DNA of 64,000 bases from Klenkia soli (GTDB taxonomy: Bacteria; Actinomycetota; Actinomycetes; Mycobacteriales; Geodermatophilaceae). The stretch spans positions 62,001 to 126,000 of the forward strand of contig NZ_FNIR01000008.1 of the NCBI RefSeq assembly GCF_900103975.1, in the 5' to 3' direction. Positions 28,056-60,730 of the stretch are shown here, one piece after another (positions within the stretch are counted from its first letter, which is position 1; each line of letters opens with the position of its first letter). The notes under the pieces were generated by a model that saw nothing but the letters and a program-made list of their open reading frames with translations, searched no databases and was not told the DNA's origin. The translations under genes and the position numbers were made by a program.

Positions 28056-29028
28056 TCACCCCCGCGACGTGGCGGGCCGCAGTCGTCCAGTGGCACGCGG
28101 CACCGCGGTGAAGGGCTGCAGTGCGGGCACCGGCGCGCCGATCTCACGCACCGTCCTGGCCCGGAACGCCTCCCACCCCGAGCCGACATCGACCATGGTC
28201 GGCCGCAGCACACGGATGCCCAAGGCGCGCAGCGCATCCTCGGCACGCTTCTCCGCCCACAGCACCTCGGCGGGGTCCTTCCCGCCGTACGGATCGGTGA
28301 ACTTCACCTTCCCGTCGCCCTCGAACGCCATGGCCTGGGCGCCCAGCCAGCCGTCGACCACCTTGACGAGCTGTCCGCCGGCCCAGATCTCCACCTGCAG
28401 CTCGGGCTCCGGCAGACCCGCCGCGACGTGCCGGACCCGCCACGCGGTCTCGAGCCACGACTCGGACCGGCCGTCGGAGCGCTCGACGGCCCGTCCGGCC
28501 AGTGGGGTGCCCCGGACGAAGCGCGCCCGCTCGAGTGCGAGCTCCAGCTGTTCCCGGTCGACCTGCTGGCGGAGCAGCGCACGGTCCAGCGTGGCGACCG
28601 CGTCGAGCTCGGGCAGCTCGCGGCACAGGTCGACGAGGGTCCGGGCTGCGCTCGTCACCGGGAAGGGCCCGCGACGGGTGAGATCCACGGCGGGCAGGTC
28701 GGCCCGGGTCGACGAGCCGGTGCTCCCCGTCGTCGGTCCCGAAGGTGGTCGTCCCCGAGAGGCGGGCTGCCGTGCGGTGGCTGAACGCGGCCGTCGGCCG
28801 GTGCAGGTGGCGCAGGAGAGCGAGCAGCTCCAGGTGGTAGCGGCGCACGTCGGTGGCCCCGTCGAGGTCGGCGGTCACGCAGTAGAGCCCGCGGCGCAGC
28901 GTCGACCAGGCGCCCGAGGCCAGCCGGCTGCGCACCTCCGCGTCGGTCCAACCCGCGGCCCGCGCCTGCTCGCGGCTGAACACCTGGTCGGTCCAGGTGG
29001 CGGTGGGGCCGGGCTGCAGGGCGGTCAT
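28056..29028 (-). pseudogene. AbiEi/DUF559-type gene broken by a frameshift
   Basis: The N-terminal half is read from ATG 29028 in one frame: an AbiEi_4-like winged helix (FSREQARAAGWTDAEVRSRLASG, then LRRGLYC) up to about EHRLVDPG near 28700. The C-terminal half is in another frame, from about RADLPAVDLTRRG to the stop at 28056. It holds the conserved PVTSAARTLVDL linker and a DUF559, Vsr-like nuclease fold (LETAWRVR, QVEIWAG, VDGWLG, FEGDGKVKF, LRALGIRVLRPT). Compared with the intact paralogue at 58555-59604, about ten residues are also missing at the break, so a small deletion that shifts the frame fits best. A sequencing error alone would not explain the missing residues. It would be non-functional as a single protein. 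Confidence 0.75.
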
Positions 29029-57268: not shown

Positions 57269-58450
57269 GTGTCCCTCGTCGACCTGGTGCTCATCGCCCT
57301 GGCCCTGCTGTTCGCCCTCTCCGGCTTCCGGCAGGGCCTGATCGTCTCGGCCGCCTCGTTCATCGGCTTCTTCGGCGGTGCGGTGGCCGGCGCCCAGCTG
57401 TCCGGGCCGGTCGCCGACGAGCTGGGCGGTTCGACGCTGTCGCGGGTGTTCGTCGCCCTCGTGGTGGTGCTGGCCGGCGCCCTCCTGGGCCAGCTGGTGG
57501 CGGGCTACGTGGGGCGGGCCGTCCGGAAGAAGGTCACCTGGGAGCCGGCGAAGATCGTCGACGCCGTGGCCGGTGCGGTGATCTCCGCGGTCGCCGTCCT
57601 GCTGGTGGCCTGGATGGTGGCCACCCCGCTGGCGAACTCGGCGTTCCCGGCGGTGGCCAGCCAGGTCCGCCAGTCGACGCTGGTGCAGGCGGTCGACGAG
57701 GGGGTGCCCGACGGCGTCCGGTCGCTGTACGACTCCCTGCGCGAGGCGATCGACCGGCGGGGCCTGCCCGACGTCCTCGACCCGCTCACGCCCACCCAGG
57801 TGCGGGACGTCCCGGTACCCGACCAGGCGCTGGCGCAGAGCGCGGTGGTCGCCCAGGTGCAGGGGTCGGTGGTCAAGATCAGCGGCGTCGCGGCCTCGTG
57901 CTCCCGGCAGATCGACGGCTCGGGGTTCGTGTTCGCCGACGAGCGGGTGATGACCAACGCGCACGTGCTGGCCGGGGTCTCCGAGCCCACCGTGCTCGCC
58001 GAGGGCGAGACCTACGACGCGATCCCGGTGTACGTGGACGAGGAGACCGACGTCGCGGTGCTCTACGTGCCCGACCTCCCGCAGGTGCCGCTGCAGTTCA
58101 ACCCGAACCCGGTCGACTCCGGCGCCGACGCGATCATCATGGGCTACCCCGGCGGCGGTGGGCTGTACGTCGGTGCGGCCCGGGTGCGGGACCGCGGGGC
58201 GATCAGCGGGCCGGACTTCCGCGCCGAGCAGACCGTCGTCCGCGACGTGTACGCGCTGTACGGGCAGGTGCGGGCGGGCAACTCCGGTGGGCCGCTGCTG
58301 GCCTCCGACGGCACGGTGCTGGGCGTCGTGTTCGCCTCCGCGGTCGACGACCCCGACACCGGCTACGCCCTCACCGACGCCGAGGTCGCCGACGCCGCCT
58401 CCCAGGGCGACACCGCCACCGCCCAGGTCGACACCGGCCCCTGCGAGTAG
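57269..58450 (+). CDS. marP: MarP-type periplasmic serine protease with CvpA-like membrane domain
   Basis: 393 aa, close to the 397 of mycobacterial MarP (Rv3671c). Four membrane helices of CvpA type (about 5-22, 30-48, 58-80, 98-118), then a chymotrypsin-like protease facing outward with His232 (TNAHVLAG), Asp261 (ETDVAVL) and Ser339 (AGNSGGPL). Cys211 and Cys392 match the pair that forms the regulatory disulfide in MarP. The protein is needed for acid and oxidative stress survival in mycobacteria, where it activates the peptidoglycan hydrolase RipA. GTG start, four bases past the cupredoxin stop. The next genes are displaced from it by an inserted cassette. Confidence 0.93.
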   Translation: MSLVDLVLIALALLFALSGFRQGLIVSAASFIGFFGGAVAGAQLSGPVADELGGSTLSRVFVALVVVLAGALLGQLVAGYVGRAVRKKVTWEPAKIVDAVAGAVISAVAVLLVAWMVATPLANSAFPAVASQVRQSTLVQAVDEGVPDGVRSLYDSLREAIDRRGLPDVLDPLTPTQVRDVPVPDQALAQSAVVAQVQGSVVKISGVAASCSRQIDGSGFVFADERVMTNAHVLAGVSEPTVLAEGETYDAIPVYVDEETDVAVLYVPDLPQVPLQFNPNPVDSGADAIIMGYPGGGGLYVGAARVRDRGAISGPDFRAEQTVVRDVYALYGQVRAGNSGGPLLASDGTVLGVVFASAVDDPDTGYALTDAEVADAASQGDTATAQVDTGPCE

Positions 58451-58499
58451 TCAGCGCGCCCCCTGGTTCCGCCGGCGTGGATCAGCTCCGACGACCGAT

Positions 58500-58539
58500 G
58501 TGCATCCTCACCAGTGGACGTCGGGAGCGGAGGATGCAC
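58500..58539. repeat. 40-nt palindromic repeat, left copy
   Basis: Begins GTGCATCCT and ends AGGATGCAC, a 9-bp inverted repeat around a 22-nt centre that contains GACGTCGGG. A second 40-nt copy in the same orientation is at 59739-59778. Between them lies only the AbiEi/DUF559 gene. Confidence 0.75.
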
Positions 58540-58554
58540 GCTGGCGGCGGAGGA

Positions 58555-59604
58555 TCACACGACCCCGAGCGATCGCTCGAGGAACGGGGTGCTCCAGGGG
58601 CGTGACCGCGGTTCCCGGCGCAGTCCGGCGCGCCAGGGCACGATGCGGACACCGGCCGGCAGCTCCAGGGGTGCGGCCAGGAGCGACCGGATGCGCTCTG
58701 CCTTGGCGGTGAGTCCGGGGCCCAGGTCGGCCGCGGCGATGCGGGTTCCCACCAGGCCGAGGTCGACCAGTTCGTCGTGTCGGCGCTTCTCGTCCCACCC
58801 GACCTCGGACGGCGATCGGCCGCGCCAGGGATCGGTCCACTTCACCCGACCGTCCACCTCACCGAACGCAGGCGTGCCCGGGAACCACAGGTCCAGGACG
58901 GCGACGAGGCGTTCGTCGCGCAGGACGGCGGCCTGCAGGACCGGCTCGGGGAGTCCTCCGGCCAGTAGCCCCAGACGGGCCCGGGTCTCCAACGGGGAGT
59001 GCGCCCCGACGCGGGCCAACCGGACGGCGCCGGCGAGGGCACCCACGCCGACCCAGTGGGCCTGGGTCAGGACCCCGGCCGTCAGTTCCTCCACGGTGAT
59101 GCGACCGTCGGCCAGGGCGTCGTCCAGCGCGATGACCGCGTCCGTGACGTCCCACTCCCGGCCGACGTCGAGCAGGGTGCGTCGCAGGGTCGTGACCGGC
59201 AGGGGCGGGAAGGTCTCGACGTCTCCCGAGGGCAGGCCGGCGGCGAGCACCCGGTAGTCGCGACCGGTGCGGAAGCGGCGGGGGTCGGTCGCTGTCACCT
59301 GGTGGCCCACGCCGCCGGGGAGGACGAGGTCGTGCAGGCGGGCCGCCGTGACGTGGCTGAGCACCGTGGTCGACCGGCCCAGGCGGGCCAGCACGGCTGC
59401 CGCCTCCAACCCGTGCCCCCGTCCGGCAGCAGCGTGCTGCCGCCAGAGCTCGTCGGTGGTGTGGACGCCGTACCGCACGGTCCGCCATCGACCTCCCCGG
59501 ACGAGGGCCGCGATCCCGTGGCGGGTGTGGCCGACAGCCACGGCATCGGCGGTGGTGAAGACGCCGCCGCGGCGGGTCAGGGCAGTGAGCAGGAGCGGGT
59601 GCAC
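58555..59604 (-). CDS. AbiEi/DUF559-type protein (winged helix plus Vsr-like nuclease fold)
   Basis: 349 aa, GTG start. N-terminal AbiEi_4-like winged helix (FTTADAVAVGHTRHGIAALVRGG, VRYGVH), a middle region with SHVTAARLHDLVL and PVTTLRRTLLDVGRE, and a C-terminal DUF559 fold (SPLETRARLGLLAGGLPEPVLQ, VLDLWFPGTPAFGEVDGRVKW, EKRRHDELVDLG). DUF559 resembles Vsr endonucleases and restriction-type folds; the acidic pair around FGEVDGRVKW would be the active site. Such genes are common and often mobile in actinobacteria, with unknown targets. It breaks the marP-ephE neighbourhood and is flanked by two matching palindromic repeats. A decayed paralogue is at 28056-29028. Confidence 0.8.
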   Translation of the reverse strand: MHPLLLTALTRRGGVFTTADAVAVGHTRHGIAALVRGGRWRTVRYGVHTTDELWRQHAAAGRGHGLEAAAVLARLGRSTTVLSHVTAARLHDLVLPGGVGHQVTATDPRRFRTGRDYRVLAAGLPSGDVETFPPLPVTTLRRTLLDVGREWDVTDAVIALDDALADGRITVEELTAGVLTQAHWVGVGALAGAVRLARVGAHSPLETRARLGLLAGGLPEPVLQAAVLRDERLVAVLDLWFPGTPAFGEVDGRVKWTDPWRGRSPSEVGWDEKRRHDELVDLGLVGTRIAAADLGPGLTAKAERIRSLLAAPLELPAGVRIVPWRAGLRREPRSRPWSTPFLERSLGVV

Positions 59605-59738
59605 GTCCGCAGGTTGCCGACGGCGGACACCGATGGAGCGGCGTCGGCGGATCTGTGGACGGGCACGCCAGATGTGGACGGGGACGCCCGCCGCACCAGG
59701 TCGTGCGCTATGAGCTCACCTCGTCGTCCAGCACCTGT

Positions 59739-59778
59739 GTGCATCCTGCGCACCCGACATCGGGGGCGGAGGATGCAC
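59739..59778. repeat. 40-nt palindromic repeat, right copy
   Basis: Same 9-bp ends GTGCATCCT / AGGATGCAC and the same length as the copy at 58500. The inside also pairs, CCCGA-CA-TCGGG, so it can fold almost completely. The two copies share the last 21 bases with only two differences and differ mostly in the left half of the centre. Confidence 0.75.
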
Positions 59779-59818
59779 AGTGCTCGTCGCACCTGATCCA
59801 CGCCGGGGTGACGGCCGG

Positions 59819-60730
59819 TCAGCGCGCCCAGGTGGCGATGGCCTCGCTGACCAGGTCGGGGGTCTCCTCGTGCGGGAAGTGGCCGATGCCGGCCAGTTCA
59901 CGCCACTCGTAGGCGCCGGCGACGTAGCGGCCCGAGCCCTCGGCGGTGCGCGGCAGCACGCAGGGGTCCAGCGCGCCGTGCAGCTGCAGGGTCGGCGCGG
60001 TCACCGGCGCGGCCATGCGGCGGGCGTAGCGCAGGCCGTCGGGGCGCAGCTGCGAGCGGAACGCCCACCGGTGGAACTCCATCGCCCCGTAGGCGGCCTG
60101 CGGGATGCGGGCGGCGTCGCGGTACCGGGCGACGGCGTCGGCGAAGTCGGCGGTGTGCACCCAGCCCGGCCCGGCCCAGCGGCGCAGCAGCTCGGCGACC
60201 GGGTCGTCGTCGGCGCGGGTCAGCCGGCGCTCGGGCAGCCGCGGCAGCTGGTAGCGCAGCGCGTAGCGGGAGGCACGGCGCTGGGCGGCGTCGGCCATGC
60301 CCGAGCGCAGCTCCCGGGGGTGGGCCGACGACAGGACGACGAGGCCGCGGACGGTGCGCGGGTGCAGCGCGGCCATCGTCCACCCGACGAGCCCGCCCCA
60401 GTCGTGCCCGACGACGACGGCGTCGGGCTCGCCCAGCGCCCGGACGACGGCGGCGACGTCGGCGGACAGCGTGGGCAGGTCGTAGCCGCGCGGGGGCTTG
60501 TCGCTGCCGCCGTAGCCGCGCAGGTCGACCGCGACCGCCCGGTAGCCGGCCTCGGCCAGCGCGACGAGCTGGTGCCGCCAGGCCCACCAGAACTGCGGGT
60601 AGCCGTGCACCAGCAGGACCAGCGGCCCCTCACCGGCCTCGGCGGCGTGCAGCCGGACCCCGTTGGCGGAGATGTCCCGGTGCTGCCAGGGGCCCGGGAC
60701 CAGTGCGCTGGTGGCGTCGGGTGCGGTCAC
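59819..60730 (-). CDS. Epoxide hydrolase-like alpha/beta hydrolase (EphE-like)
   Basis: 303 aa. HGYPQ oxyanion motif (His42), nucleophile Asp110 in VGHDWGG, and a terminal HFPHEE that supplies the catalytic His. These are the marks of soluble epoxide hydrolases. It corresponds in position to EphE (Rv3670) of mycobacteria. GTG start overlaps the stop of the upstream membrane gene (GTGA), so both share one transcript. Substrate unknown. Confidence 0.9.
   Translation of the reverse strand: MTAPDATSALVPGPWQHRDISANGVRLHAAEAGEGPLVLLVHGYPQFWWAWRHQLVALAEAGYRAVAVDLRGYGGSDKPPRGYDLPTLSADVAAVVRALGEPDAVVVGHDWGGLVGWTMAALHPRTVRGLVVLSSAHPRELRSGMADAAQRRASRYALRYQLPRLPERRLTRADDDPVAELLRRWAGPGWVHTADFADAVARYRDAARIPQAAYGAMEFHRWAFRSQLRPDGLRYARRMAAPVTAPTLQLHGALDPCVLPRTAEGSGRYVAGAYEWRELAGIGHFPHEETPDLVSEAIATWAR

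Follow-up and report, generated by a model that had tools for sequence, protein, structure and literature searches.

A gene lying between two palindromic elements in the 64,000-nt stretch of Klenkia soli DNA analysed here (hereafter the window) belongs to a nuclease-like gene family that is widely associated with extragenic palindromes of its own. The anatomy of this unit, its recurrence across the class and the dispersed copies that match the ends of the genes are direct observations. The locus is probably a REPtron-like unit built on an unrelated enzyme, whose protein would bind and cut the palindromes and bring about their spread.

In the window, the marP-like and ephE-like genes are convergent and a single minus-strand gene lies between them (Table 1); both names are those of the original prediction, and what was tested for the two flanking genes is their Pfam domains. 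The two 40-nt elements, with ends GTGCATCCT...AGGATGCAC, lie where they had been reported, one on each side of the single gene, and are 78% identical in a 46-nt register that takes in both of them. Genome-wide, the pattern GTGCATCCTN{10,30}AGGATGCAC is found in three places, namely at both window elements and once on contig C6, whereas the reversed control pattern is found nowhere. The 40-nt palindromes are the middle of two ends of approximately 80 nt, which are inverted to each other: the 83-nt arms, beginning with GGCGTGGATCAG... on the left and ending with ...CTGATCCACGCC on the right, are 76% complementary. The elements had been said to share the same orientation, which is formally correct; each, however, approximates its own reverse complement, and the arms that surround them are inverted. 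The whole unit, of the form A-P-i-gene-i'-P'-A', occupies 58474-59804 and measures 1331 nt in the window genome (G000) and 1327-1339 nt in the three relatives with an orthologous locus. A consensus scan of 58300-60000 found no T-run terminator, and neither GTAG nor CTAC lies within 12 nt of either window palindrome.

Table 1. The unit and its flanking genes, in window coordinates.
Feature	Position	Strand	Remarks
marP-like flanking gene	57269-58450	+	Colicin_V 1.3e-21, Trypsin_2 7.6e-23
12-nt direct repeat GTCAGCGCGCCC, left copy	58450-58461	+	at the marP stop
Outer arm A, left, GGCGTGGATCAGCTCCGACGACCGAT	58474-58499	+	inverted to 59779-59804; kept in three orthologous loci and in solo copies
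Palindrome P, left, 40 nt, downstream side of the gene	58500-58539	.	hairpin -18.0 kcal/mol, z -2.3
Inner half-repeat i, left, GCTGGCGGCGGAGGATC	58540-58556	+	overlaps the stop codon of the gene; common form GGTGGCTGAGGAC (aligned with the inner sides of other ends)
Protein gene, 349 aa	58555-59604	minus	AbiEi-type N-terminal half (~8-188) and PD-(D/E)XK/DUF559-like C-terminal half
Inner half-repeat i', right, upstream side of the gene	59724-59738	minus	by alignment, weak match in the window genome, clearer in three relatives
Palindrome P', right, 40 nt	59739-59778	.	hairpin -30.3 kcal/mol, z -7.3
Outer arm A', right, GGCGTGGATCAGGTGCGACGAGCACT on the minus strand	59779-59804	minus	inverted to left arm A
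12-nt direct repeat GTCAGCGCGCCC, right copy	59818-59829	+	at the ephE stop codon
ephE-like alpha/beta hydrolase, flanking gene	59819-60730	minus	Abhydrolase_1 7e-31

The product of the enclosed gene is predicted to be a PD-(D/E)XK-type nuclease on the basis of a motif and of a link to DUF559. Its N-terminal half matches the PADLOC AbiEi models (2.1e-18, residues 11-183), as do 26 of 26 members of the family. The window protein falls below the Pfam cut-offs (AbiEi_4, E 0.018), AbiEi_4 being found in 20 of the 26 members at E up to 0.01, and its assignment to AbiEi rests on the PADLOC models and on its relatives. The C-terminal half contains D238...E249-x-D251-G-x-x-K255, in which D238, D251 and G252 are invariant and E249 and K255 nearly so among 26 sequences; we take this motif to be a PD-(D/E)XK nuclease signature, and its conservation bears out, at the level of sequence, the description of a nuclease-type gene. 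The likeness to DUF559 / REase_MTES_1575 lies in this conserved D...E-x-D-G-x-x-K and in the paralogue L009, which passes the DUF559 cut-off (22.8 versus 20.6 bits) and whose place is matched by the family profile at 3.8e-33; DUF559 gives no match to the window protein itself at E up to 1, and the putative link of this protein to DUF559 is transitive, via L009. The motif E-x-D-G-x-x-[KHT] is present in 68 of 72 gene copies with ends and in 20 of 23 copies without clear ends, so that ends and motif are not tied; in four end-bearing copies, one of them in G000, the motif E is replaced (by N, D, N and A). Some gene copies match in two pieces or with an internal stop (L029 in G089, G092:C3:151317-152320, and L117 in G067). 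Structure prediction gave a model of mean pLDDT 34, a search of the PDB by sequence returned nothing meaningful, and NCBIfam has no match to the protein. The gene is, as had been claimed, no known transposase. Spread on plasmids or phages was considered and set aside, since the window protein has no match in the plasmid and phage collections. The neighbours of the gene are the marP-like protease and the hydrolase, with no partner toxin gene (AbiEii nucleotidyltransferase) adjoining. The window also holds a distant paralogue at ~28065-28730 (G000:C9:90065-90730, L007), which is 38% identical over query residues 113-334 and is without clear paired ends (score 25).

A marP match was found in 94 of the 96 genomes of the family, and 30 marP loci were fetched for comparison. 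The gene is present at marP-ephE in four of these (G000, G045, G040 and G022) and absent in 26, where 7 to 174 nt separate the end of the marP match from the end of the ephE match; in G003 and G029 the stop codons of marP and ephE abut. In line with the original prediction, the gene thus interrupts a pair of neighbours, the two adjoining each other directly at 26 of the 30 loci; presence of the gene at this site in all relatives, which would have told against the prediction, is not what the comparison shows. A locus whose protein is 80% identical is found in Klenkia terrae (NZ_UEXK01000004.1). Identity to the window sequence is 81, 72 and 71% for the orthologous proteins, against 94, 91 and 86% for marP. 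Among the four orthologues dN/dS is 0.23-0.39, versus 0.14-0.27 for marP, which indicates that the gene is under purifying selection and yet evolves faster than marP; at 0.62-0.75 its dS is likewise higher, about double the marP value (0.28-0.41), so that an older split or independent gains are conceivable. In other genera (several of the loci L048-L068) the marP-ephE interval often contains a different hairpin-like repeat, AAGGACCCCGCTGCCCC...CTGCAGCGGGGCC and variants, and the site therefore seems to collect hairpins of several families. At a second chromosomal site, whose gene context appears by eye to be the same, several genera have another copy of the gene with palindrome ends of its own (L005, L013-L025).

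Paired inverted ends are a recurrent property of the gene family. The sample consists of 95 fetched gene loci (not every gene copy) from 64 of the 96 family genomes, and in each we scored how well the upstream flank matches the downstream flank in reverse complement, 45 being the threshold. An inverted end match of at least 45 is present in 72 of the 95 loci and one of at least 60 in 61, against 11.8% and 8.3% of 3000 random cross pairs; as these cross-locus controls are inflated at the top by loci with neighbours in inverted order, thresholds rather than maxima were used. In the 72 loci, the median start of the upstream end lies 164 nt ahead of the start codon, and the downstream end extends to a median of 93 nt beyond the stop. 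Three blocks recur at many loci: an arm like GATCAGGTGACCTGATC, a palindrome of 32-40 nt and, towards the gene, a half palindrome. The ends match better in inverted than in direct orientation in 61 of the 72 loci, and the best match of the left end is its own right end in 36 and lies within the top three in 56; at the window locus, the left and right ends are specially matched within species in only one of four genomes. The brackets had been expected to fold, and they can, both at the window palindromes (Table 1) and in the family, with hairpin z < -3 for 57 of the 72 upstream ends and as many of the downstream ones. According to a simple codon-position gene caller, the neighbours of the gene-bearing units are convergent in 47, divergent in 16 and tandem in nine of the 72 loci.

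The association extends to the class: at E up to 1e-30 the family profile matches 87 of 148 genomes, G000 among them. Outside the family the 29 best-scoring loci were fetched, and a score of at least 45 is reached by 20 of them, versus 30 of 812 cross pairs. Most of these ends lie at distances from the gene similar to those in the family, and in five of the 20 the downstream match starts 145-490 nt past the stop. Hairpin z values below -3 are reached by 10 of 20 upstream and eight of 20 downstream ends; only about half of the class ends being hairpin-forming, some are plain inverted repeats. Clear ends are missing in 23 of the 95 family loci and nine of the 29 class loci. Target-site duplications were sought at the 72 loci, and as a class there are none; the longest shared word averages 5.65 nt within and 5.84 nt across loci. 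Among these loci a 12-nt shared word at the unit edges occurs at the window locus only, and this direct repeat flanking the window unit, as a possible target duplication, is only suggestive.

Across the genomes, short copies that lack the gene are found behind genes, in the form A-P-A' or A-P-i. The palindrome type GTCCTGGCTCA...TGAGCCAGGAC occurs in 37 of 96 genomes, with up to 26 copies per genome, and its reversed control in none of the 96. Of the 64 genomes with fetched genes, 15 have it at one of those gene ends, and at least three copies are present in 14 of these 15 genomes but in six of the 49 others, at least one of which (G090) has a further gene copy with a GTCCTGGCTCA-type end (L212). 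For a second type, GTCCCCCYGCACCA, which occurs in 13 of 96 genomes, 10 of them of the genus g6, the test of whether type tracks gene is weaker: at least one copy is present in six of seven genomes with the type at a gene end versus five of 57 without, and by hand count four of seven versus five of 57 when the genes' own ends are subtracted, the gene's own end being the only copy in G002 and G066. In Klenkia the window type has, among the matches listed and with gene ends included, 36 places in G040, 21 in G022, 12 in G045, five in G000 and one in G050, the first four being the genomes that hold the gene at marP-ephE. The five places in G000 include the gene's own two ends and a weak cross-match to another type (type b). 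No window-type place is among the matches listed (to near E 1e-10) for G003, G014, G029 and G036, which have 12, 20, 7 and 12 whole-query matches in all, most of them beyond those listed, under a scoring that was capped for each genome. Seven type-b places are present in G000, yet its six gene loci showed no end of type b, an exception that speaks against type tracking gene as a strict rule. In the types examined, the palindrome type thus tracks the ends of the resident gene, with exceptions. In a genome from another family, the 400 kb read around the gene contain one solo copy that matches its ends, at a distance of 44 kb.

The 46 solo copies of the GTCCTGGCTCA type, a set that leaves out two gene ends (L185 and L212) and two repeats of other entries (L159 and L160, of L208 and L197), comprise 23 A-P-A', 19 A-P-i and four others. 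Gene calls around them, made with the simple caller checked on the window only, place 30 between convergent and 16 between tandem genes, and none between divergent genes or inside a called gene; GTAG or CTAC lies within 12 nt of the palindrome in none of the 46. The solo on C6 of G000 forms a near-perfect 92-nt hairpin (-78 kcal/mol, z -13). On C8 of the same genome, two window-type A-P-i half-elements lie in the same orientation (G000:C8:34710 and 36521, L088), flanking what to the eye resemble genes for an EamA transporter and a GntR regulator.

In the REPtron-like reading, a protein with an AbiEi winged-helix half and a PD-(D/E)XK-type half is encoded between inverted palindrome-bearing ends, A-P-i ... 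i'-P'-A'. The winged-helix half would most likely bind these ends and the nuclease half would most likely cut or nick the cognate hairpins, so that the gene-less short copies (A-P-A' and A-P-i) would either be copied to intergenic sites behind genes or be kept alike there. Such spread and homogenisation we infer from the distribution of the short copies, which is itself observed. Possibly, terminator or autoregulation roles are part of what the palindromes do. The gene is present or absent at this site among close relatives, and movement of the whole cassette, as in the original prediction, is hypothetical: target duplications are lacking as a class, a second copy stands in one conserved gene context across several genera, and the window protein has no match in the plasmid and phage collections.

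Comparison of fixed sites indicates that copies come, go or change type. At the glyS site, a window-type solo is present in only G000 and G040 of eight genomes compared, and the six relatives have, by eye, other hairpin-like sequences or none. At C9:135017 one site is occupied by type b in three genomes (G000, G014 and G045) and by type c in three others (G029, G003 and G040). The second-locus gene of G029 and G003 likewise has ends of type c, and the gene ends of G014 and G045 include type b. At C18:283063 type b is found in G000 and G014, the window type in G040, and neither in G029, G003, G045, G036 and G022, where the next genes differ. A type-b solo at C18:284455 is common to G000 and G014 and lacking in G045 and G022, for which the left flank only is comparable. 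For a solo with both neighbours conserved, no clean pair of empty and filled sites was obtained, and the turnover data do not tell transposition from conversion. The alternation of types b and c at C9:135017 may reflect replacement in place rather than transposition, as would be expected of a gene-conversion drive, in which the nuclease cuts palindromes of its own type and repair from another copy leaves them homogenised and type-switched at fixed sites. Such a drive, acting without transposition, would agree with the correspondence between local type and gene ends in G029, G003, G014 and G045, with the window-type solo of G040 where G000 and G014 have type b, and with the match between the left and right ends of the gene. 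It is nevertheless rather unlikely to be the explanation, as conversion alone gives no account of how copies reached new sites, for example the glyS solo or the gene at marP-ephE; moreover, types b and c could also be independent insertions, and type b stands at C9:135017 in G000, where no type-b gene end was seen.

The palindromes might instead be transcription terminators, those adjoining the gene serving also as operators, and the gene an AbiEi-like autorepressor, with nothing moving at all. The position of all 46 solos behind genes and the other hairpin-like sequences at the glyS site in relatives would suit terminators, and AbiEi is known to bind inverted repeats in its own promoter (PMC3985639). 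This explanation is improbable, since it accounts neither for a matched inverted end downstream of the gene, nor for the polarity of A outside and i inside, nor for palindrome types that track gene types between genomes. The scan of 58300-60000, which took in the window unit, also found no T-run terminator, and a generic terminator as the sole reading was rejected as not sufficient alone. Actinobacterial terminators need not have a T-run. The original prediction had set ordinary terminators behind many unrelated genes against itself: repeats are indeed found behind such genes, yet they make up a set cognate to the gene family, and the scan found no T-run terminator in its interval. It is highly improbable that a defence or toxin-antitoxin gene, acting on its own, has landed here between two convergent genes and that the palindromes are incidental, as paired ends recur in 72 of 95 family loci, no partner toxin gene lies beside it and the window protein has no match in the phage and plasmid collections, even though all 26 members scanned match PADLOC AbiEi models. 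Scarcely credible is a remnant of an insertion sequence or transposon, or a MITE family whose ends are used by a DDE transposase unrelated to the gene; the inverted ends and short non-autonomous copies have a MITE-like look, and target duplications are lacking as a class. As the end-bearing loci were picked via the nuclease-like gene and the transposase search was for Y1_Tnp, a DDE element sharing these ends may have escaped notice.

If the REPtron-like reading is extended to the whole family, AbiEi-fused PD-(D/E)XK nucleases, widespread in Actinomycetes, would constitute a second, independently evolved REP system that recognises, spreads and homogenises its own extragenic palindromes, a proposal put forward tentatively, at odds a little below even. 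So far HUH Y1 is the one class of enzyme to which REP repeats have been linked, and the dispersed palindromes described here have a linked gene of another enzyme class, class-wide and as cognate pairs. On this proposal many genes labelled as AbiEi-family antitoxins would be palindrome-propagating enzymes, and single 'AbiEi' genes without a toxin partner would gain a concrete candidate function. Searches of the open literature (subscription papers and preprints lying outside) on DUF559 or AbiEi with palindromes or inverted repeats, on RAYT in Actinobacteria and on Geodermatophilaceae palindromes showed, among the papers listed, no description of such a system.

Several known systems share part of this arrangement. 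AbiE type IV toxin-antitoxin systems resemble it in that the N-terminal half of the protein matches AbiEi models and that AbiEi binds paired inverted repeats (PMC3985639), which by analogy makes binding of the ends by the window protein plausible; they differ in that the protein here has an additional nuclease-like C-terminal half and no adjoining AbiEii partner, and in that the repeats lie also downstream of the gene and elsewhere in the genome. TIRtrons (PMC3733652) have a TIRYT gene flanked by long inverted repeats, some of which belong to moderately abundant dispersed families, but their enzyme is of the Y1 type. Insertion sequences and MITEs have inverted ends, as do the window unit and 72 of 95 family loci, but target-site duplication is absent here as a class, and intrinsic terminators likewise form a hairpin behind genes but no T-run follows a stem in 58300-60000.

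The closest likeness is to REP/RAYT systems, and in this the original prediction, which had excluded REP-tyrosine-transposase types, was not borne out, the arrangement being closely similar and the enzyme a different one. As in REPtrons (PMC2817692 and PMC3733652), a gene lies between two inverted palindromic repeats, cognate repeats are dispersed, the repeat type tracks the gene and the gene evolves faster than its neighbours; the repeats lie behind genes, between convergent or tandem genes, which is also where PMC3733652 mainly places REPs. The CGTC repeats of that paper have no known enzyme. A RAYT acting in trans was rejected, as a Y1_Tnp (RAYT-type) transposase was found in none of the 96 family genomes by a search whose control was positive in five of 14. 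The differences are that the enzyme is AbiEi-like and PD-(D/E)XK-like rather than an HUH Y1 transposase, that the ends are compound (A-P-i), that copies number tens rather than the more than 100 given as usual in PMC2817692, and that there is no GTAG head at the solos or at the window palindromes. With the features of a REPtron present except for the enzyme and the GTAG head, the unit would work like a REPtron without being one by membership.
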